From Candidatus Poribacteria bacterium (GTDB lineage Bacteria; Poribacteria; DTPJ01; WJIO01), in NCBI GenBank assembly GCA_014730235.1, contig WJIO01000200.1, positions 1 to 9,239 on the forward strand: a DNA stretch of 9,239 nucleotides, written 5' to 3'. Under the pieces are notes generated by a model. The model saw only the letters and a list, made by a program, of their open reading frames with translations. It ran no database searches and was not told where the DNA came from. This document shows positions 1 to 9,239 of the stretch, one piece after another; positions within the stretch are counted from its first letter, which is position 1; each line of letters opens with the position of its first letter. A program made the position numbers and the translations under genes.

Positions 1-150
1 ACTCACTCCCCGGGAACTGACGATCACCTGGTCTATATCCATGAGGGGATATTCGTCATTTGTCTTTTCCTTATCCCGATATTTGACTACCAGCCTCTCG
101 CTGTGCTTGCCCAGATATGTGCCGTATTCGGAGACGATGATAGGTTCCAT
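1..150 (-). CDS. cas1: Cas1 integrase, N-terminal part (3' end beyond left edge)
   Basis: Only the first 50 codons are present. They begin at ATG 150 and stay open to position 1. The protein begins MEPIIVSEYGTYLGKHSERL and continues with LMDIDQVIVSSRGVS. This matches the opening of Cas1, a beta-sandwich domain with a 'vse.G.yL.k..erLvv' strand pattern and a following 'plhdldqVvv...gvs' strand. By family, Cas1 is the metal-dependent integrase that with Cas2 inserts new spacers into the CRISPR array. Its catalytic Glu/His/Asp residues lie in the C-terminal domain outside this window, so activity cannot be judged. An SD-like AGGGAG (161-166) lies 10 nt upstream of the ATG and overlaps the last codons of the helicase gene. 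The gap to that gene is only 7 bp, so the two are co-transcribed. The identification rests on a short segment plus strong context. Confidence 0.88.
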   Translation of the reverse strand, partial: MEPIIVSEYGTYLGKHSERLVVKYRDKEKTNDEYPLMDIDQVIVSSRGVS

Positions 151-157
151 TTTTTAT

Positions 158-2158
158 TCACTCCCTGCTGTTGCGTTTTGATAGATCATAAATCTCCTTT
201 AGCAAAAGCGCGTCACCATCAAAAGCTATTATGTATCGTCCTCGTGGACTCCCACATGGGAACCAGGCCAATCGCCAGTCCAGTTGTGAAACTATGTCCG
301 CAGGAGCGAGGGTGAATACGTGATGATTTGGTTTAGCCATAACATGGGATACTGAGGTAAGATGACCTTCCTGTTTAAATTGCATCTTATCTGTCGGGTA
401 ATGTGCTGTTGTAAAGAGAATTCCGCAGCAATCTTCCTCCCTTTCCTCTGAAAAGGATTTATTAAACCATACTTGTCGGTACTTTCCGTATCCCTTAACA
501 TATAGTCTTCCATGCTTTTCATTGTACCAAAGCCTTTCAGCCCGGGTAAGCAACATTTTTACATCCGCTTCATAACACCAATCGCGCTCGTTTTCTTTTT
601 CACGAACGTCCCAGACTTCCTGATTTGGTAGGGATGTGCGAAAAGAATCAATCTCCATGTAATGCTCAAACCATTCTGGTTTGCGCCGAATCTTACGTCG
701 GGCCCTTCGCATCTGCGATAGTTCCATTTTTTCGGAATAACGGTTTAGAGTTTCCTCAAGCCATTCGTCAATCTGCGATTTCATGGAATCATCCGCCGAA
801 AAATCCTCAAGAATGCGCTTCCTGAAATTTTCCCCCTGAGCCAGAATGGTAAACGAACCACACAAAGTGTCCACAAACCATCCTCTTGCATCCTGCTGCG
901 GGTAGATCGCTGTGATGCCGCGCTCCAGATCGTCTCTGGAAATATCATCTCCAATGGACATAACAGCCTGACATTCCCTGTGGTCTCCCAATAGAAAGGC
1001 TGTTCCTTCGCTGTGTCTGCCAATACGCCCAAAACGCTGCATAAAAGAAGCTGCATTGCCCGCTTCGAAGATAAGATAATCGGTCTTAAAGTCAATGCCC
1101 ACCTCAATAGCTGCTGTCCCGATTACCAGAGTTTTTCCCCTTACGTCGCGACTGCTTCGGGCAGATAATCCCCGGATAGGAGCTATCTCAGTCCTGGGTA
1201 TTCCCGATTCGACCAGGGAATCTTCTAAAGCAATTGCATTTACTACGGAATTAAGTATGACAATGCAGGGAACATATTCCCCCTCAGAGTTTGCTGCTTT
1301 GTTACTTTCCTTTAGGGATTTGAGTTCATCAAACAATTTCATTACCCTTGTCCGGGTTATATCAACAATATCAGAAGAAAAAGGTAATGGGTGCAGGAAA
1401 ACATCATGGGCTATTTTACGTCCCTCTCCACATAATATTGGCTGAGGCACTTTGACAGATGCGTCTATTAATAGAGGACTAATCAATCTGTCAAGATGGG
1501 CTTGTACCTCAGGATTAGGGGTTGCAGAAAGCAATACAACTCGCTGAAAAGCGCCCATTTCACGGGCAAGGTAAATAAGAAATAGGGCATGGGCTAGCTC
1601 AACGCCGCCATATAAATGGAACTCATCGAATACAATGGTCTGATAGGCCTGAAAATGTCCCAGAGCTTCGGAACTTGCGCAATATCTCAAAGAATAGATC
1701 AGGTATAGAATATCCGGGTTAGTCAGTATGATTTTTCGCTTATCGGGCCGGAGCATATCCAGAAGCGCCGTGCTTTTGCGTATTCCCCGGGCTTTGGCAA
1801 ATTCATTAAGTGACGCCGCACTTATCTGGACGAGAACATACTCAGCCGTTCCAAAGCTTTCCTGCGCTTTTTCTGAATTCCATTCATAGAAACTGATGCC
1901 CTCATCCTTCATTAACTGCTTTATTGCTTTGGCCTGATCCTGGATCAAAGCATTTGTTGGATAGACAAAAACCGCCGATTCATGGTTTTTCAGAACAGGC
2001 AAAGCCGTTGCCCGTGTCTTACCACTACCTGTCTTTGTAACCAGCAAAAATGAATCATTATTTTTCCATTCGTTCAGCATAGCAGCCTGATGTGGATAAG
2101 GTCTCATCTGCAATCCTTCAATTTCCACCTGTTTGTAGGAATAACCCCTGATTTTCAT
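158..2158 (-). CDS. cas3': Type I-D Cas3' helicase without HD domain
   Basis: Superfamily 2 DNA helicase/ATPase of 666 residues that should unwind and translocate on target DNA after Cascade binding. Visible motifs: Walker A TKTGSGKT (41-48), Ia VYPTNALIQDQ (65-75), TNPD (146-149), motif II DEFH (178-181, a DExH variant), motif III SATPN (211-215), motif V IGTAAIEVGIDF (346-357) and motif VI QRFGRIGRH (374-382). The helicase core starts within the first 20-40 residues, so no HD nuclease domain is attached. In type I-D the HD domain is on Cas10d, as it is here. The C-terminal 200 residues are less recognisable and rich in charged and aromatic residues. The start ATG at 2158 overlaps the csc1 stop as ATGA and has GGAAG 6 nt upstream. 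An ATG at 2227 would add 23 residues but lies well inside csc1 and is less likely. The stop is 7 bp before cas1. Confidence 0.93.
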   Translation of the reverse strand: MKIRGYSYKQVEIEGLQMRPYPHQAAMLNEWKNNDSFLLVTKTGSGKTRATALPVLKNHESAVFVYPTNALIQDQAKAIKQLMKDEGISFYEWNSEKAQESFGTAEYVLVQISAASLNEFAKARGIRKSTALLDMLRPDKRKIILTNPDILYLIYSLRYCASSEALGHFQAYQTIVFDEFHLYGGVELAHALFLIYLAREMGAFQRVVLLSATPNPEVQAHLDRLISPLLIDASVKVPQPILCGEGRKIAHDVFLHPLPFSSDIVDITRTRVMKLFDELKSLKESNKAANSEGEYVPCIVILNSVVNAIALEDSLVESGIPRTEIAPIRGLSARSSRDVRGKTLVIGTAAIEVGIDFKTDYLIFEAGNAASFMQRFGRIGRHSEGTAFLLGDHRECQAVMSIGDDISRDDLERGITAIYPQQDARGWFVDTLCGSFTILAQGENFRKRILEDFSADDSMKSQIDEWLEETLNRYSEKMELSQMRRARRKIRRKPEWFEHYMEIDSFRTSLPNQEVWDVREKENERDWCYEADVKMLLTRAERLWYNEKHGRLYVKGYGKYRQVWFNKSFSEEREEDCCGILFTTAHYPTDKMQFKQEGHLTSVSHVMAKPNHHVFTLAPADIVSQLDWRLAWFPCGSPRGRYIIAFDGDALLLKEIYDLSKRNSRE

Positions 2159-2892
2159 GCCGCACTTCCAATCCTGTTTAACACACGTTTGGGTACATGG
2201 ACTGCATGTCCTTTTCCGAAAACCCACCAGTCTTCAGCAATTGTGGCCATGCGAAATAACATATGCGGTGGAATGATTACAGGATCAAAGCTGATTAATT
2301 TCCCGTTTATATCCAGTGGATTGATCAGATGAGTCGGGCGGCGAGGTTTTTCCTGTAGAAATGCCACAGGTTCAGTAATTTCCTCCCACCAGATCCGAAC
2401 CGGCGCACTTTTTTTACCAATACGGACTACACTTGGTAGTTGATAATTATCAAACACAAAGGCATAGAACTGATAGCCTTTTCTCGGTCGCTGTATCTCT
2501 CTTGGTTCCCAGATAGGATCAAGGTAAACCCGTTTCCCCAGATTGGGCGTATTCATTGTTTTACTATCCCCTGTAGTTAATGTGCGGGTATCCAAGGCGT
2601 TAAATGTTATTGTAGTACGTGAAACTGTTTCTTTACAATCAGCAGGTGTCGCATAGACCGGCATGGAACCAAATTCTCCATCCGGATCATCAACATATTT
2701 TGGAGTGGAACCAACAAATATGCCATAAGAACGATGAGACAGGGCATAAGACAGAGCATAGTTGTGAATAACAGGTTGAGTAGTGGATATTTTGCTGATT
2801 TCATTGGATGAAAACCACAAATAATCGTGATTATACAACCTGCCCATGAAAAGACATACGTCATATTCATTAAGATGGATAGCTTTTTCCAT
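2155..2892 (-). CDS. csc1: Csc1, Cas5-family subunit of type I-D Cascade
   Basis: RAMP-fold protein of 245 residues. By family it binds the 5' handle of the crRNA at the foot of the I-D effector complex. Csc1-like features: VIHNYALSYALSH near 41-53, where Csc1 proteins have a 'HNyALsyAl' block; TFNALDTRTLTTG (97-109) followed by MNTPNLGKRVYLDP (113-126); LPSVVRIGKKSAPVRI (152-167), the 'lP..vRlGKk...vr' strand; and THLINPLDI (187-195). The start at ATG 2892 is preferred because GAGG lies 7 nt upstream. An ATG at 2898 would give MNM- but sits directly against that SD. The gene follows csc2 after a gap of about 9 bp and ends in a 4-bp ATGA overlap with cas3', indicating translational coupling. 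Sequence divergence is normal for Cas5 proteins, so the call leans partly on position next to csc2. Confidence 0.88.
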   Translation of the reverse strand: MEKAIHLNEYDVCLFMGRLYNHDYLWFSSNEISKISTTQPVIHNYALSYALSHRSYGIFVGSTPKYVDDPDGEFGSMPVYATPADCKETVSRTTITFNALDTRTLTTGDSKTMNTPNLGKRVYLDPIWEPREIQRPRKGYQFYAFVFDNYQLPSVVRIGKKSAPVRIWWEEITEPVAFLQEKPRRPTHLINPLDINGKLISFDPVIIPPHMLFRMATIAEDWWVFGKGHAVHVPKRVLNRIGSAA

Positions 2893-2901
2893 ATTCATCC
2901 C

Positions 2902-3837
2902 TCATTTCTTCTGCTGCTCAGAGACATACTCACCTACATCCTTATATGATTGTTCCAATAATGATTTATCAAGTGGTATCTCTGTTGCTTCTTTAATTAC
3001 CTGATCCACCTGTTCTGGACTGAATATAGTTATATGATCTGGATTTCCCGTCATTGGTCTATACTTTTCGGCTATAGTTTTGAAAGTCTCACCACTTAGA
3101 TTATCCTGTTGTTCGTATAGCTCAAGGGTTAATTCCAAAGGTGTTATAACTTCTTCCCAACCACCGATAATGCCAAAGACAGAATTCCGCACATCTCCGC
3201 CTATTCGCGACTCAGCACCGTAGCTTTTACAAGCGAGTAACGTCTTAATTGACAAAACAAACTCAGTGAGAGTTACACTGCGTAAAGATACAATACTTGG
3301 AAATACAGTTGCCGGAACAACAGCGTAGCGCGTTCCCAAAGCCTGACCCGTGGTTTGATTTCGGTCATTTATGGCGTTGAAAGTGGTGGATGATTCGATC
3401 TCCTCAAAGGGGAGTAGCGAAAAAGCTGTGGAATATGCAATGCGGTGCTTTATATTTGCACGGTTTTGCCTTCCTGACTCGGTACTTGTAGCACCAAAGA
3501 GAGCACAACGAGGGCATTCCAGGCATAGATTGTCCTTTAGGAAACATTCCGTAATATCCATCCTCGCATCTTCAGTCGCTGTTCTGAGCATCTGCTCCAG
3601 TTTTCGGGATTCAGCCGCTTTCTGCTTGGTTGCCAGGAAGGCAACTCGCATTGTTGTTACATCCCCGTTTTTCAGTGATAGTGGAGTCGCTACAGTGTTA
3701 AGCTCTCTGGTCTCCTCTGTTCGTAAGACCGTATAATCAAGAATTTCACGCATCATCAAAATTTGAATTGTCTTTGCGCCAATCAAAGGCTGTGGTTTTT
3801 CTACTGTGTAGGATTTTAGTAAATCCAGACTACTCAT
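2902..3837 (-). CDS. csc2: Csc2, Cas7-family backbone subunit of type I-D Cascade
   Basis: RAMP protein of 311 residues that by family polymerises along the crRNA spacer to form the effector backbone. Four cysteines at 98, 105, 108 and 111 (C-x6-C-x2-C-x2-C, around CLECPRCALFGA) form a likely zinc site, as in other Csc2 proteins. The next block, NIKHRIAYSTAFSLLP (128-143), and TTFNAINDRN (151-160) match the Csc2/Cas7 core. RYAVVPATVFPSIVSLRSVT (170-189) plus KSYGAESRIGGDVRN (204-218) look like the palm and Gly-rich loop region. The start ATG 3837 has AGGAGG exactly 6 nt upstream. An ATG at 3855 in the same frame would add MKRRKK, but those codons are the SD itself. The gene overlaps the stop of the preceding 211-residue gene by 8 bp and is followed within about 10 bp by csc1. 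Confidence 0.92.
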   Translation of the reverse strand: MSSLDLLKSYTVEKPQPLIGAKTIQILMMREILDYTVLRTEETRELNTVATPLSLKNGDVTTMRVAFLATKQKAAESRKLEQMLRTATEDARMDITECFLKDNLCLECPRCALFGATSTESGRQNRANIKHRIAYSTAFSLLPFEEIESSTTFNAINDRNQTTGQALGTRYAVVPATVFPSIVSLRSVTLTEFVLSIKTLLACKSYGAESRIGGDVRNSVFGIIGGWEEVITPLELTLELYEQQDNLSGETFKTIAEKYRPMTGNPDHITIFSPEQVDQVIKEATEIPLDKSLLEQSYKDVGEYVSEQQKK

Positions 3838-4465
3838 TTTCTTCCTCCTCTTCATCTATAAATTCTTCAATATTCGTATGAGAATGAAAATCTCTGATGT
3901 CCTGCTTTTTCTTCTCATTTGCCTGCTTGTAAGCTTTGTTTTTAGTTGAGGGAAATCGAACATCCTCGAATGTTATGCTCTCTTTCCATGCTTCGGTCAA
4001 TTCAGCATCACTGGAATACCTGTTGTGAAGGAATTTGATGAAATCTTCCTTTGTTTTTTCAAGCCATTCTATTGACTTCTTGCGCCTGACATAATAGACA
4101 TTGTAACGAATACGATCTGCTACCTTATTAACTACTGTTAAAGGAATTGTATTAAATAATTCAATTAAACCGTTCACAGCTTTTTCAAGGGCTTTTATAG
4201 CTTCAGGAGAAATGTATCCACCGCTTCCGGGATTCATCTCATGGGCTCGAACTGCCTTTCCAATAAGAGTTTCAGCGTCTTCCTTTCGTGTTTTTGCACC
4301 ATCTAATATCATTGGTATAGGTCCCATCAATCCGTGCATTGTCCTGGATGTTTTGACCCTATATTCGTCAAGATATTGATCAAAAGCATCAACTATTGTC
4401 TCCAGCTTTGGTTTGATACTATCAATATCAAAATGAGTACCTTTTGTCATGATTAGTTGTCTCAT
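3830..4465 (-). CDS. Unassigned helical, acid-tailed protein between cas10d and csc2
   Basis: I do not recognise a named family for this 211-residue protein. It looks largely alpha-helical: heptad-like helices at about 13-37, 60-76 and 87-106, then a basic aromatic helix RIRYNVYYVRRKK (118-130) leading into SIEWLEKTKEDFIKFLHNRY (131-150). Residues 150-172 (YSSDAELTEAWKESITFEDV plus RFP) resemble a short motif often written 'kYgs.eeLneAW...sfedi..P' in unrelated proteins. The last 15 residues are strongly acidic (NIEEFIDEEEEENE). No signal peptide, membrane segment or catalytic motif is visible. It is clearly a real gene: GAAAGGAG lies 7 nt before ATG 4465, which overlaps the cas10d stop as ATGA, and it overlaps csc2 by 8 bp. 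Its position among effector subunits suggests a separately encoded small (Cas11-like) subunit, a split-off piece of Cas10d, or an accessory factor. None of these is shown by the sequence. It is more AT-rich than cas6 or cas3'. Confidence 0.9.
   Translation of the reverse strand: MRQLIMTKGTHFDIDSIKPKLETIVDAFDQYLDEYRVKTSRTMHGLMGPIPMILDGAKTRKEDAETLIGKAVRAHEMNPGSGGYISPEAIKALEKAVNGLIELFNTIPLTVVNKVADRIRYNVYYVRRKKSIEWLEKTKEDFIKFLHNRYSSDAELTEAWKESITFEDVRFPSTKNKAYKQANEKKKQDIRDFHSHTNIEEFIDEEEEENE
3844..3849 (-). promoter_or_regulatory. Ribosome binding site that fixes the csc2 start
   Basis: A full AGGAGG on the minus strand lies 6 nt before ATG 3837. It decides between two in-frame ATGs (3855 and 3837) in favour of the second. 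The same bases are read in another frame as Glu codons in the acidic tail of the upstream gene, so this stretch is both coding and regulatory. Confidence 0.85.
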
Positions 4466-7227
4466 CGCAAGACTCCTTTCAGTTTTTCAAGTAACTGGAA
4501 ATGATGAATATAAGCTTGACCGGATTCACTTTTCTGCTCAATGCGCCGGAGTATATAACCAGCTGTTGCGCTTTTGAGAATCTGATAGAGATTTGACCGT
4601 TCGGGAAAGTCCGTAGAATTTGCAATAAGAGCAGCTGCACCAATGGCATCCAGCCATTCCTTTGCAGATATGTCTCTCTCTGAGTCTTTTATGGTTACCC
4701 AATCTGCACCTATCAGTTCTCGTAACGCAGGAACTGAAGGCACTCTTGCAACTCCTTCTCCACCCTCAAAGGTTATTGACTCACCTGATCTGACAACAGT
4801 AACGGAGCAGTCCAAAGCCAAACCCAGGAAAAGCGTTATGTAGAGCTCCCTGATACCCGAGTTTGTATCTGATTCCTTACCCATGGTTATTGGATTTGCC
4901 AAAGGAATCAAAATCATATTAGGCGTCTGGCAAACTATATGGAATTGTGAACTAAGACGGAAGGCTTGCGCTTTTAATCTACGGGCTTCACTATCATTTA
5001 CCCTATCCGCAATTAAAGCAGCTAAAGCCTCATCTACAGAGTCAAAATCGGTTCCCCATTCATCGTTGAGTTCTTCAATAATTAATTCATCCATACCGTA
5101 AAAATCTTTGAGAATGTTTATAAGCTCTTTGCGGTACTTCTTCTTTGTATGGCTGGCGGATTCGTATGTTATTAACTCTACAATCTCAGAAGGTGTAAGT
5201 CGAAAAATCTCATAATCACTTAGTTTCCTGGCAAGATTGTAGATCATACCCAGAGATAATCTTCGATCAGGATCGGGATTTGCCTCTGACATGCGCATAT
5301 TGGCTGATTCCCAAATATCAATCGCTTTTCTTTGCAGAATTTCCCCATTAGCATGGCCGATATTCATCCGCGGAAATAGTACCAGCATATCGGTTACCTG
5401 TGAACCCAGGATGATCTGTTGAAGAAAAAGTTCGTATTTGCAGGAGTCACAGATAGTGATTGCTCCGCTGCTGCCATGAGAAATGCCGCGATTGGTATGT
5501 CCCTCAGGATTATCTACAAAATCTGCCTTCGCTTTTGTGCCACCGTCAAAAGTTTGGTTGCATATAGGACAAATATGCAAACCTTTGTCCTTTCTAGCGT
5601 TAGCCTTAGTTCCTCCGTAGGCATTTATCTGTTTATTAACAAGTGTTTCCATGTCCATGTCCTGAACAGGGTGAATCAAGTCAACGATAAGGGAAGATGC
5701 AATATCCTCTGGTGATATTCGGGTTGGTCTGTTTGCCTCCGGTATTGCAGAATAGACTTTATCCGCTATGTTTGTGAGGGTTTCAATTAATATCTCTTCC
5801 CTCTTTTTATCATCAAGTAGATTACCTATTGTGGAGACATCCAGACCAAACTTTTCACCGCTAATTGACCAGAATTTGCTGACTGTTAGCGCCATATCCT
5901 GATCAGGCATAAGTGTTGAGGTATACCTTAACGCATCATAAGCTCCTTTGCCAAACACAGCATCATATTCTGCTTTGGCTACACTTTGCGGTGTTACTGT
6001 CAGAGTCTTTTTCCTGCCCATGGCTTCTGCAAAATCAGAGTAATTCTCTGCCGCTTCTGGTGTTACCTCTGTGCCTAGCATGTCCTCTGATAACGCGGCT
6101 TTCAGAAACTTAAATATACACATTTCAGGTTGTGCTGCGCTAATTCTGGCTGCATGTAGCTCAATTTCTTCATCATCTGCACTAACTCTCTGTCCTGATT
6201 TCCATCTCTTTCTGGCATCTGATACGGCTGATTTGGGAACCATTTCCTGATCTTTAAAATTTTCCAATATGAATAAATATTTGCTAACAACTTCACGTTT
6301 CTTCGGCGGAGTTTTTTTCATAAAACTGCCTCTTCCTATAAGTTTAGAAGCAGCACATAAATATAACTGAATTTCACAATAGTCAAACAGATCGGGTTTG
6401 GGCATCATACTTTGAACAGGACTGCCAACAACATGATCGGCATAGTTAATTTGCATTGCTTTGCTTATCACTTCAGAAAATTCTGATTCTATATCCGATA
6501 AGGTTGGTTCCTGCGGCAATTCTACACCACTGACAACGTAAATTGTCCCATTGCTATAATGTAGTAACGGAATCCATCCCTTTTCCATAAACATATTAAT
6601 AGCAGATCTATGTAACATAGTAGTGGAAACACCTCTGATGCGGACAAGATGATAAGCAGTTTTCAGATGGTTTGACAGGCAGCTTGATTCTGATAGATAA
6701 TTAAGTGCGGAAAATAAACCTTTACAAGAACAAAGATTATCAACAGCATCCACTATATCCGCCAGCATCTTCCACCTTGCATTGGTATGGCCGCCAAACA
6801 AAAGCCTGTTGATAACTTTGGCATTAGACCTTTCCCGACGCATATGTAATACAATTGCCGAGAGAATTTCCTCTATCCCGGAAAATCCAAATTGCTTTAC
6901 TACTTCAGGCACAACTTCCTTTGCCAGTTCCCTATCCACATCCGAAACAAATCCACCCTTTCCCTGGATATAATCCTGCCATTTATCCGGTTCTTTGCCA
7001 ACGTCATGCAGAAGCGCAGCTATCAGTAAAGCTTGTTCTTCCTGTTCGGTAAATGGAGGCGCAAAGGATTGGCGAAGTAAGGGCAAAAGAACAATTAAAG
7101 CGTCAATTTCAATAAGCGTGTGATCAAACAAGCTTTGTTCAAAGCTCCATTTTTTGGCTGTCTTCTCCTTCCAACCCCGATTAAGCATAAGTTCAATCGC
7201 ATTTTCTCTGAAACTCTTATAATCCAT
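4462..7227 (-). CDS. cas10d: Cas10d (Csc3), large subunit with HD nuclease domain, type I-D
   Basis: Large subunit of the I-D effector, 921 residues. The N-terminal HD domain shows H36 (FDHTLIEIDAL), the H74-D75 pair in ALLHDVGKEPDKW, H128 in VLHMR, H147 and Asp 157/160/163 in ADIVDAVDNL. These are plausible metal ligands for target DNA cleavage, which in I-D is carried by Cas10d and not by Cas3. A zinc finger follows with C553-x2-C556 and C593-x2-C596. No GGDD motif is present, so cyclic oligoadenylate synthesis as in type III is not expected. The C-terminal 70 residues are helical. SD GAAGGAG (7239-7245) is 11 nt upstream of ATG 7227, and cas6 ends 24 bp before. The 3' end overlaps the next gene by 4 bp. 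An internal in-frame SD-GTG at 4741-4761 may give a second, short product. Classification is firm; the exact palm domain limits are not visible. Confidence 0.95.
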   Translation of the reverse strand: MDYKSFRENAIELMLNRGWKEKTAKKWSFEQSLFDHTLIEIDALIVLLPLLRQSFAPPFTEQEEQALLIAALLHDVGKEPDKWQDYIQGKGGFVSDVDRELAKEVVPEVVKQFGFSGIEEILSAIVLHMRRERSNAKVINRLLFGGHTNARWKMLADIVDAVDNLCSCKGLFSALNYLSESSCLSNHLKTAYHLVRIRGVSTTMLHRSAINMFMEKGWIPLLHYSNGTIYVVSGVELPQEPTLSDIESEFSEVISKAMQINYADHVVGSPVQSMMPKPDLFDYCEIQLYLCAASKLIGRGSFMKKTPPKKREVVSKYLFILENFKDQEMVPKSAVSDARKRWKSGQRVSADDEEIELHAARISAAQPEMCIFKFLKAALSEDMLGTEVTPEAAENYSDFAEAMGRKKTLTVTPQSVAKAEYDAVFGKGAYDALRYTSTLMPDQDMALTVSKFWSISGEKFGLDVSTIGNLLDDKKREEILIETLTNIADKVYSAIPEANRPTRISPEDIASSLIVDLIHPVQDMDMETLVNKQINAYGGTKANARKDKGLHICPICNQTFDGGTKAKADFVDNPEGHTNRGISHGSSGAITICDSCKYELFLQQIILGSQVTDMLVLFPRMNIGHANGEILQRKAIDIWESANMRMSEANPDPDRRLSLGMIYNLARKLSDYEIFRLTPSEIVELITYESASHTKKKYRKELINILKDFYGMDELIIEELNDEWGTDFDSVDEALAALIADRVNDSEARRLKAQAFRLSSQFHIVCQTPNMILIPLANPITMGKESDTNSGIRELYITLFLGLALDCSVTVVRSGESITFEGGEGVARVPSVPALRELIGADWVTIKDSERDISAKEWLDAIGAAALIANSTDFPERSNLYQILKSATAGYILRRIEQKSESGQAYIHHFQLLEKLKGVLR
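4465..4743 (-). other. Possible internal translation product of cas10d (Cas11d-like, about 93 residues)
   Basis: Inside the cas10d frame, GGAGAAGGAG (4752-4761) stands 8 nt before the GTG of codon 829 (4743-4741). The product would be residues 829-921 of Cas10d, starting with VPSVPALRELIG read with initiator Met, and largely helical from about 855 on. It is established for type I-D that the small subunit Cas11d can be made by internal initiation near the 3' end of cas10d. Here the SD-like run also encodes Gly-Gly-Glu-Gly-Val, so it may be only codon content. GTG is a weaker start, and 93 residues is short for a Cas11 subunit. Confidence 0.35.
4473..4480 (-). promoter_or_regulatory. Ribosome binding site of the 211-residue gene
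   Basis: GAAAGGAG lies inside the last codons of cas10d, 7 nt before ATG 4465. It selects this ATG over the in-frame ATG at 4450. It also argues that the gene is actively translated and not a chance reading frame after cas10d. Confidence 0.8.
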
Positions 7228-7251: not shown

Positions 7252-8208
7252 TTAGATTGATCTTTCCATAATATCATATTTCCCTAACCCAAAAGTAGCA
7301 CCCTTACCCACATGGGCATAGTGTCCCAGAACGACAAACGGCAAGAATGGCCCCAATTCACTTTTGTAGGTGACTTCTCCCAGCAAACCACCCAATCTCA
7401 TTCGTCTATCCTGCCTTGATGAATAGCGAGTCCAGTCATACCATTCCAGTTCCGATTTTACCGTCTCTATTTCGTTGGCCTGATTCACAAATTCCTTGAA
7501 GTCTATCAGGAGGGATTCACCACAGTGGAAATAGTCCAGCGCGGATATCCGGCCCAGCAATCTCTGGAGGAATACGTGAAACGGCAGTTCGTCTGTGAGT
7601 TGTCCGTTATAGGTAATGCGGGTAGGGGTTAGAAATTTTATGGTTACCTGATCCGGGGATAATTGTTTCGATTCCTGCTGAATTGCGCTGAAGTCCAAGT
7701 CGCAGTCCAGGTTATTTACCAGTTCTGTCTCCCACGAATACACGCTTTCACCCGCATCTTCACCGCTTTTAGCCACCACTTCTGTCATCTGAAATCTGCC
7801 GCGACCACGACCGATCCCCATATTTCCCAGTTCCCGAAAGCTTACCAGAAAATATGGCAGGTAGTCAATAGCTTTCCCGATCAGGGTAAGCAAAAATTCC
7901 AGCGTCTCCCCTGTTTTATAGTTGCCGTTTGTTTCCAACGGGTCTATTATAAACGGTCTGGGTACATCGCTGTAACCCCGCAGTTGGGTCGCGTCTTCCG
8001 GTGGGGATGTCTCAAAGATATATGAGTATGGACATAGATTATTAAGAGTGCAGTCCTTACATTCAGTGTTTTTCATGGTGCATACAATCTTCCTAAAGGC
8101 CTGCCCAAATCCACCCCGAAGGGTGGAACCAGAATAAGGGGGCATGAAGATAGATTCTCTGGCTGTCAGGATGATCCTGTATTGGGCCAATCTGAAGTTT
8201 TTTAGCAA
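7252..8208 (-). CDS. cas6: Cas6 pre-crRNA processing endoribonuclease
   Basis: RAMP-family RNase of 318 residues that cuts CRISPR transcripts within repeats to give mature crRNAs. Recognisable blocks: SGSTLRGGFGQAFRK (26-40); a Cys cluster C43-x6-C50-x2-C53-x5-C59 ending CPYSYIFET (59-67); PRPFIIDP (83-90); LTLIGKAIDYLPYFL (107-121); ELGNMGIGRGRGRFQM (126-141); LGGLLGEVTYKSELGPFLPF (272-291); and the C-terminal Gly-rich loop HVGKGATFGLGKYDI (299-313). This order fits the Cas6 family with a Cys motif. The catalytic residue cannot be assigned with certainty. The start codon is TTG at 8208, set by a perfect AGGAGGTGA 7 nt upstream; the first in-frame ATG lies 21 codons downstream, inside the first conserved strand, and would truncate the fold. 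It is the first gene after the probable operon promoter, and cas10d follows after 24 bp. Base composition is richer in GC than in the genes that follow. Confidence 0.93.
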   Translation of the reverse strand: MLKNFRLAQYRIILTARESIFMPPYSGSTLRGGFGQAFRKIVCTMKNTECKDCTLNNLCPYSYIFETSPPEDATQLRGYSDVPRPFIIDPLETNGNYKTGETLEFLLTLIGKAIDYLPYFLVSFRELGNMGIGRGRGRFQMTEVVAKSGEDAGESVYSWETELVNNLDCDLDFSAIQQESKQLSPDQVTIKFLTPTRITYNGQLTDELPFHVFLQRLLGRISALDYFHCGESLLIDFKEFVNQANEIETVKSELEWYDWTRYSSRQDRRMRLGGLLGEVTYKSELGPFLPFVVLGHYAHVGKGATFGLGKYDIMERSI

Positions 8209-8288: not shown

Positions 8289-9239
8289 TCACTCCCCATT
8301 TTTTTCGTATATTTTTCTCATTTTTTCAGCTTCTTCTCTAAATTGAAGCCTCAGTTCCTCGGGTTCCAGCACTTCGGCATGAGAGCCATAGCCCATGATC
8401 CAGCGTTTCACTTCCTTTAATCCGCCCACCTTCAGCCGTAATATCAGACCACCCGATTCCAGTTCCTTGATCTTCTGGCTGGGATGCCACTGACGCTCCC
8501 TTATCCAACGGGCCTGGTACTCGTCGAATTTGATTACAATATCCACTGGCTCTTCTGCCCTTTCAGCCATGAAACCTGTCTGCAAATATTTATCAAGGGA
8601 AAAATTTCGGCTTATGTTAAATGTTGATGGAAGTAACTTCCATTTTCTTACGCGTCCGGCCAGGAAATCCCGCACCGCTTCGCGATTATGGCAATAAGCT
8701 ATGAGGTACCAGTCACCCCGGATGTTATGAAGATAATATGGATCAACTACGCGGGTGCTTGTCTTTCCCTGGCTTGCTGAATAATACAATATCTCCATCT
8801 GATATTTGGACTGGATCGCCTGATTCAACTCCAATAGCAGGCTCGGATCAACGTCAACCGTCGCTCCGCCTGTAAAGGCGATGCTGGAAGCTTCTGATTG
8901 GATATCATAGGCCACGTATTCCGGGAGATATTGCATTATTTTATTCAATGCATTTCGTATAGGCTGCTCAAACGTAGTGCCCATATACCTTTTTAGTATT
9001 TCCTCACCCAGAAAGAAGGCCGTAACTTCCTTCTTTGTCAAAAATATAGAGGGTAAGAAATAGTTTGGGTTTTCGTAATACCAACCACTATTTGTTTTGT
9101 CGTATTCAATAGGGGCATGCAACCGGTTTTTCATGAATATTCGATCATTATATGCCACACGTTCACTGCGTAATTCAAAATGCTCCATTACAGTATGAGC
9201 ATTTGGGTATCTTTTCATTCGTATCTGCTGATCTATCCA
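8289..9239 (-). CDS. WYL-domain transcriptional regulator (5' end beyond right edge)
   Basis: The frame is open to the right edge and gives 316 residues. An ATG at 9218 lies within the conserved N-terminus: WIDQQIR upstream of it belongs to the winged-helix opening common in this family ('..WIDrqIr...YPNa.tlae.FevS.rTa.RDI.yLrdrLgAPi.yd'). The true start is therefore probably about ten codons beyond the window. From the edge: HTH region YPNAHTVMEHFELRSERVAYND then MKNRLHAPIEYD; the YYENPNYFLPSIFLTKKEV linker; the WYL domain with the WYL tripeptide itself in GDWYLIAYCHNREAVRDFLA; and a C-terminal WCX-like extension ending GYGSHAEVLEPEELRLQFRE. WYL proteins sense ligands, probably nucleic acid or nucleotides, and often regulate CRISPR-Cas and other defence genes. 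Its place directly upstream of cas6, same strand, suggests control of this operon, perhaps with autoregulation. Activator or repressor mode cannot be told. Confidence 0.9.
   Translation of the reverse strand, partial: WIDQQIRMKRYPNAHTVMEHFELRSERVAYNDRIFMKNRLHAPIEYDKTNSGWYYENPNYFLPSIFLTKKEVTAFFLGEEILKRYMGTTFEQPIRNALNKIMQYLPEYVAYDIQSEASSIAFTGGATVDVDPSLLLELNQAIQSKYQMEILYYSASQGKTSTRVVDPYYLHNIRGDWYLIAYCHNREAVRDFLAGRVRKWKLLPSTFNISRNFSLDKYLQTGFMAERAEEPVDIVIKFDEYQARWIRERQWHPSQKIKELESGGLILRLKVGGLKEVKRWIMGYGSHAEVLEPEELRLQFREEAEKMRKIYEKNGE

Follow-up and report, generated by a model that had tools for sequence, protein, structure and literature searches.

The locus described here raises the question of what a separate 211-codon gene is doing between cas10d and csc2 in an operon of type I-D, a CRISPR type said to have no separate cas11 gene (PMC7689449). 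Internal expression of Cas11d is said to be widely conserved in type I-D (PMC10212523); in the known systems translation of Cas11d is initiated separately inside the cas10d gene, and the protein lines the complex (PMC10212523, PMC9123187). The stretch of DNA analysed, referred to below as the window, is 9,239 nucleotides long and constitutes the entire contig C127 in a 5.5-Mb assembly of metagenome-like character.

The genes of the window form one operon on the minus strand. It begins with a WYL-domain regulator (8289..9218; Pfam WYL 1.8e-19, WCX 8.1e-23) and cas6 (7252..8208; PADLOC PDLC01477, E=6.9e-108), followed by cas10d (4462..7227, 921 aa), the 211-codon gene (3830..4465), csc2, i.e. 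cas7d (2902..3837; NCBIfam TIGR03157, E=2.6e-30), and csc1, i.e. cas5d (2155..2898; TIGR03159, E=2.2e-24). The cas3' helicase gene comes next (158..2227; TIGR03158, E=8.1e-50; the ORF is given as listed, with its start unrefined). The operon runs into the 5' end of cas1 (1..150), which is cut by the contig end after approximately 50 codons; its translation begins MEPIIVSEYGTYLGKHSERLVVKYRDKEK, and positions 2-42 of Pfam Cas1 were matched at 10-138. The start of csc2 was most likely at 3837, judging from the N-termini of the relatives; the longest ORF would begin at 3855. Profile searches thus found a type I-D effector module comprising Cas10d with an HD domain, Csc2, Csc1 and a separate Cas3'.

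The first-pass annotation had described the 211-codon gene as unassigned but tightly coupled on both sides, and the coupling was confirmed. The gene shares 4 bp (ATGA) with cas10d and, given the csc2 start at 3837, 8 bp with csc2. It has its own Shine-Dalgarno sequence, AAAGGAG (4473..4479), 7 nt upstream of its ATG and within the 3' end of cas10d. The predicted protein is essentially all helix in the AlphaFold2 model, with a basic middle (charge +6 in residues 106-150) and an acidic tail (charge -9 in the last 16 residues), also as annotated. The codons of the EEEEE stretch in this tail, GAA GAG GAG GAA GAA, contain GAGGAGG (3844..3850), the Shine-Dalgarno sequence of csc2, and the csc2 ribosome-binding site sits in the 3' end of the upstream gene in the relatives too. 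Since these codons carry the csc2 signal, the acidic tail is at least partly a translation signal and need not be a functional feature of the protein. The tail may nevertheless have a protein role, given that the homologue from genome G277 has a longer tail with an acidic stretch also farther from the csc2 start.

Five homologues were found, all in Chloroflexota genomes drawn from the phylum or the class of the Thermoflexus genome: Thermoflexus sp. (53 % identity), G548, G672 and G529 (42-43 %) and G277 (35 %). Far from being absent from the close relatives of the operon, the gene was kept between cas10d and csc2 at each of these loci, with a spacing to cas10d of anything between a 4-bp overlap and 61 bp. 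The dN/dS ratio (omega) among the three closest relatives was 0.04-0.11, which indicates purifying selection. Because five homologues 35-53 % identical occupy the same position and omega is this low, the 211-codon gene is a real coding gene in a fixed place, beyond chance.

The assignment of the gene came from a profile search. PADLOC PDLC01194, labelled 'Cas11d, CAS-I-D, effector_SS', matched residues 1-207 over positions 1-202 of its 202 (E=5.5e-64, 214.3 bits), and the relatives matched it with E-values of 2e-40 to 1e-79. The gene was therefore not unassigned: PADLOC (2023) already holds a matching full-length Cas11d profile, so the family is known as a database profile, and by this sequence match the window locus adds a member to it. 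Nothing was found for the 211-aa protein in NCBIfam or in sequence searches of the PDB, and when the stand-alone family was aligned directly, profile against profile, with fused Cas11 domains, significance was not reached (hhalign E=0.058). Homology to the fused domains therefore rests on fold and position.

The fold was predicted with AlphaFold2 from the six sequences (pLDDT 85.3, pTM 0.80), and the model was compared with the PDB using Foldseek, as the first-pass annotation had proposed. Cas10d of S. islandicus took ranks 1 and 2 (probability 0.97 and 0.96) and Synechocystis Cas10d ranked fifth (0.84); the E-values of these I-D Cas10d matches were only 0.26-1.2, unconvincing alone. In VIA-align, residues 18-133 of the model were superimposed on 6yes_B 719-844 (Z 10.1, rmsd 2.7, 114 residues) and residues 10-132 on 7sba_I 826-968 (Z 9.7), followed by 6thh_C (Z 9.4) and 7sbb_I (Z 8.8), but helical bundles score Z 6-13 by chance in this program, and a Z of about 10 is not decisive by itself. 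What carried weight was that four chains agreed on precisely the Cas11 residues and that a gap separated them from the next Z: the top four matches, at Z 8.8-10.1, were all I-D Cas10d chains aligned over the Cas11 domain, which in S. islandicus Cas10d comprises residues 720-847 (PMC7689449), and unrelated chains began at Z 6.9. Csm2/Cas11-type chains were also listed (8bmw_B, Z 6.0; 6o7e_B, Z 4.3). The N-terminal ~130 residues are thus predicted to fold like the Cas11 domain of I-D Cas10d, a helical bundle placed at codons 10-133 (4067..4438). They are followed by a C-terminal extension of about 75 residues (codons 134-211; 3833..4066), missing from fused Cas11d domains, in which W160, F166, P172, S173, D189 and F193 are conserved in the six sequences. 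In total length the 211-aa protein exceeds canonical Cas11d by about 65 residues.

The neighbouring Cas10d lacks the corresponding domain. It matched PADLOC PDLC01192 over residues 3-920 (1082.6 bits) and contains HD, palm, zinc finger and thumb, aligning with canonical Cas10d up to the thumb (E about 1e-17). The tail past the last palm motif measured 112 residues in the window, 106-112 in the split type as a whole and 122 in Halococcus, also split, against 265-303 in those fused Cas10d proteins whose motif could be located. The AlphaFold2 model of Cas10d was poor (pLDDT 52) and was set aside, so the missing domain was judged by alignment and length; on these grounds the ~155 residues absent from the end of Cas10d are the Cas11 domain, supplied by the separate gene. 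When the Cas10d and Cas11 profiles were joined and compared with fused Cas10d, the hhalign score rose only slightly, from 155.7 to 169.6. The stand-alone gene adjoins a cas10d of the PDLC01192 type in 6/6 loci. In a survey of 396 genomes of one class, PDLC01192 Cas10d and PDLC01194 Cas11d were both found in the same four genomes, and G277 likewise carries both.

Profile, predicted structure, position and the correspondingly shortened Cas10d together make it very probable that the gene encodes, as a protein of its own, the Cas11d small subunit of a type I-D Cascade. Of the roles offered by the first-pass annotation, a dedicated Cas11-like subunit was thereby borne out, although it would replace the C-terminal domain missing from Cas10d and not be an additional subunit. 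By analogy with known I-D Cascade such as that of Synechocystis (PMC9123187, PMC10212523), copies of Cas11d would stack along Csc2 (Cas7d) from the Cas10d thumb, forming a minor filament that would hold the displaced strand and so stabilise the R-loop, and Cas11d would move with Cas10d upon PAM recognition. The short overlaps would couple translation of cas11d to that of cas10d and csc2, keeping its amount in step with both, and would let Cas11d outnumber Cas10d, a task that falls to the internal start elsewhere in I-D. As no copy is carried covalently on Cas10d, a free subunit would therefore have to fill the first position of the filament. The extension may help to fill this position; our guess is that it makes up for the missing covalent link by contacting Cas10d, or that it joins neighbouring subunits to one another.

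How the separate gene arose was considered next to its function. It is possible, though we think it the less probable course, that it is an ancestral cas11 of an early I-D lineage that was never fused, and not a product of gene fission. Reviews propose a once-separate cas11 that was later fused to cas10 (PMC10212523), and in an unrooted Csc2 tree the split-type proteins form one group (support 98/95) on a long branch away from all fused types. Against this, the tree is an unrooted one that long branches disturb, and a split at the same boundary in Halococcus dombrowskii means that fission does happen, which makes secondary fission just as possible. There the cas10d gene is split into 833 + 145 codons, with the small piece aligning on positions 822-961 of the fused haloarchaeal profile; this split is independent of the window type and probably recent, as judged from the sequences. 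The split-off gene (L019 7534-7971) is labelled as a second 'cas10d' in the record. If an ancestral unfused cas11 were indeed retained, the lineage would represent a surviving intermediate between type III, with its separate cas11, and standard I-D, with the fused one. The fuller proposal, that the lineage keeps the ancestral gene and that the extension is a lineage-specific contact, to Cas10d or to a neighbouring subunit, replacing the covalent link, is more doubtful still.

Another reading is that cas10d itself supplies the small subunit internally and that the 211-aa protein is an accessory component, either a regulator of the complex or an effector not yet described for I-D. Canonical cas10d genes do have an internal ATG preceded by AAGGA about 145 codons before the end (Synechocystis, Picosynechococcus, Gloeothece); in Synechocystis the cas11d start read from the sequence is codon 830, and an ATG with a Shine-Dalgarno sequence at the Cas11 boundary is also clear in the fused gene of Chlorohelix. 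In the window cas10d a single weak GTG lies in frame 93 codons before the end, accompanied by an SD-like stretch; together with an extension unlike canonical Cas11d, it could speak for such a reading. This GTG is not conserved, however, in two relatives cas10d offers no internal start candidate whatever, and no conserved internal start was found in split-type cas10d. Moreover, any protein translated from within cas10d would not be a Cas11, given that only about 112 residues follow the palm motif of Cas10d and its chain stops after the thumb. It is the ATG of the stand-alone gene that corresponds in position to the canonical internal start: Cas11d of the window comes from its own gene and not from a start inside cas10d. 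With fold and profile both pointing to Cas11, and a Cas11d profile already in PADLOC, an accessory role is very improbable, and the suggestions of a regulator or of an undescribed effector found no support.

A resemblance to GH42 was observed over a helical segment of about 79 residues (codons 131-211; 3833-4075), weak but repeated: Pfam PF02449 matched codons 131-207 weakly in four of the six members, with a best score of 21.8 bits against a cut-off of 21. That the gene is a GH42-related fragment inserted into the operon by chance is most improbable and a GH42 identity was rejected, since only ~79 of 376 profile positions are covered, in the extension only and with no catalytic barrel, the Cas11d profile scores far higher (214 bits), and this operon type carries the gene as a fixed component.

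Returning to the stand-alone Cas11d, its distribution was followed beyond the five relatives. The first-pass annotation had proposed looking for the gene at the same place in other I-D loci; this held for the Chloroflexota relatives, but in ten other I-D loci, all on plasmids, Cas11 was fused to Cas10d. Among 84 genomes of the window's own phylum a strong match was found only in the window's genome, and two others gave weak matches inside long unrelated frames. No relatives of the 211-aa protein or of the window's Cas10d were found in the viral contigs, phages and plasmids scanned. Downstream of the split-type operon in G548 lies an array with at least 26 copies of GTTGCAGACACTCGATCCGAGGATAGGATACTGAAAG (L025 16027-17997), likely the repeat of the split-type I-D system. 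A search allowing ≤3 mismatches did not find this repeat in the window's genome.

Other CRISPR modules were present in the window's genome. Contig C274 (L043 1-141) and positions 1-141 of the window share 141 identical bases, the 5' end of cas1, adjoined by different I-D modules. The module on C274 encodes a fused Cas10d-Cas11d (PDLC01506 + PDLC01499) and divergent Csc2 and Csc1, so that one genome appears to hold both the split and the fused I-D design. The shared cas1 start may reflect an exchange of modules at cas1 or the presence of two strains in the assembly. A further CRISPR-Cas locus, on contig C377 (L045), carries cas1, cas2 and a short array of repeats, GTTTCAATCCCTTATAGGTATTC, and looks like type I-B by its gene content.

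No papers describing a stand-alone I-D cas11d family were found in the open-access library searched. What appears to be newly described here is the conserved ~75-residue extension, the csc2 Shine-Dalgarno sequence within the acidic-tail codons and the second, fused I-D module in the genome. Several I-D systems need separately expressed Cas11 in human cells (PMC7689449, PMC10212523). A natural operon in which cas11d stands alone and Cas10d lacks the domain offers a ready test of the need for a fused copy and a natural design for eukaryotic expression, and it is a data point on how Cas11 moved between the separate and fused states.

Two further plasmid loci were observed during the comparison. 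The csc2 locus of a Rubrobacter radiotolerans plasmid (L017 4432-7811) contains a separate gene that is HD-like, one of 688 aa labelled Cas8b and, before csc2, an unassigned 149-aa gene that is possibly another separate small subunit. In Aureibacter tunicatorum pAT6 (L018 4759-7581) a presumed large subunit of 940 aa takes the third place in the order WYL, cas6, large subunit, csc2, csc1, cas3'; it matched no PADLOC, NCBIfam or Pfam profile.

Among the known systems, the pair PDLC01194 + PDLC01192 is the closest: the window agrees with it in full-length match, length, Cas10d type and place in the operon, no difference from the PDLC01194 family was found, and the window is a member from outside the Chloroflexota genome set. 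PDLC01499 on C274 is also labelled as an I-D small subunit, but it is fused to Cas10_Id and belongs to a different sequence family. In Halococcus dombrowskii (plasmid NZ_CP095009) Cas11 is likewise separate, with 145 codons, a 4-bp overlap with cas10d and a place before csc2, whereas it matches the fused haloarchaeal Cas10d profile PDLC02023 and has no C-terminal extension. Type III Csm2/Cas11 is also a helical bundle from a separate small-subunit gene; it belongs to a type III complex and was the weaker structural match (8bmw_B, Z 6.0). The Cas11 domain of S. islandicus Cas10d (6YES, 6THH) gave the best one, Z 10.1 over the annotated domain, but is fused there. With Cas11d of the Synechocystis I-D Cascade (7SBA, 7SBB) the window protein shares the predicted fold of residues ~10-133, the place beside the Cas10d thumb and separate initiation; it differs in that it has its own gene where Synechocystis uses an internal start, Cas10d carries no covalent copy at its end, the C-terminus is longer by about 75 residues, and sequence similarity is not significant.
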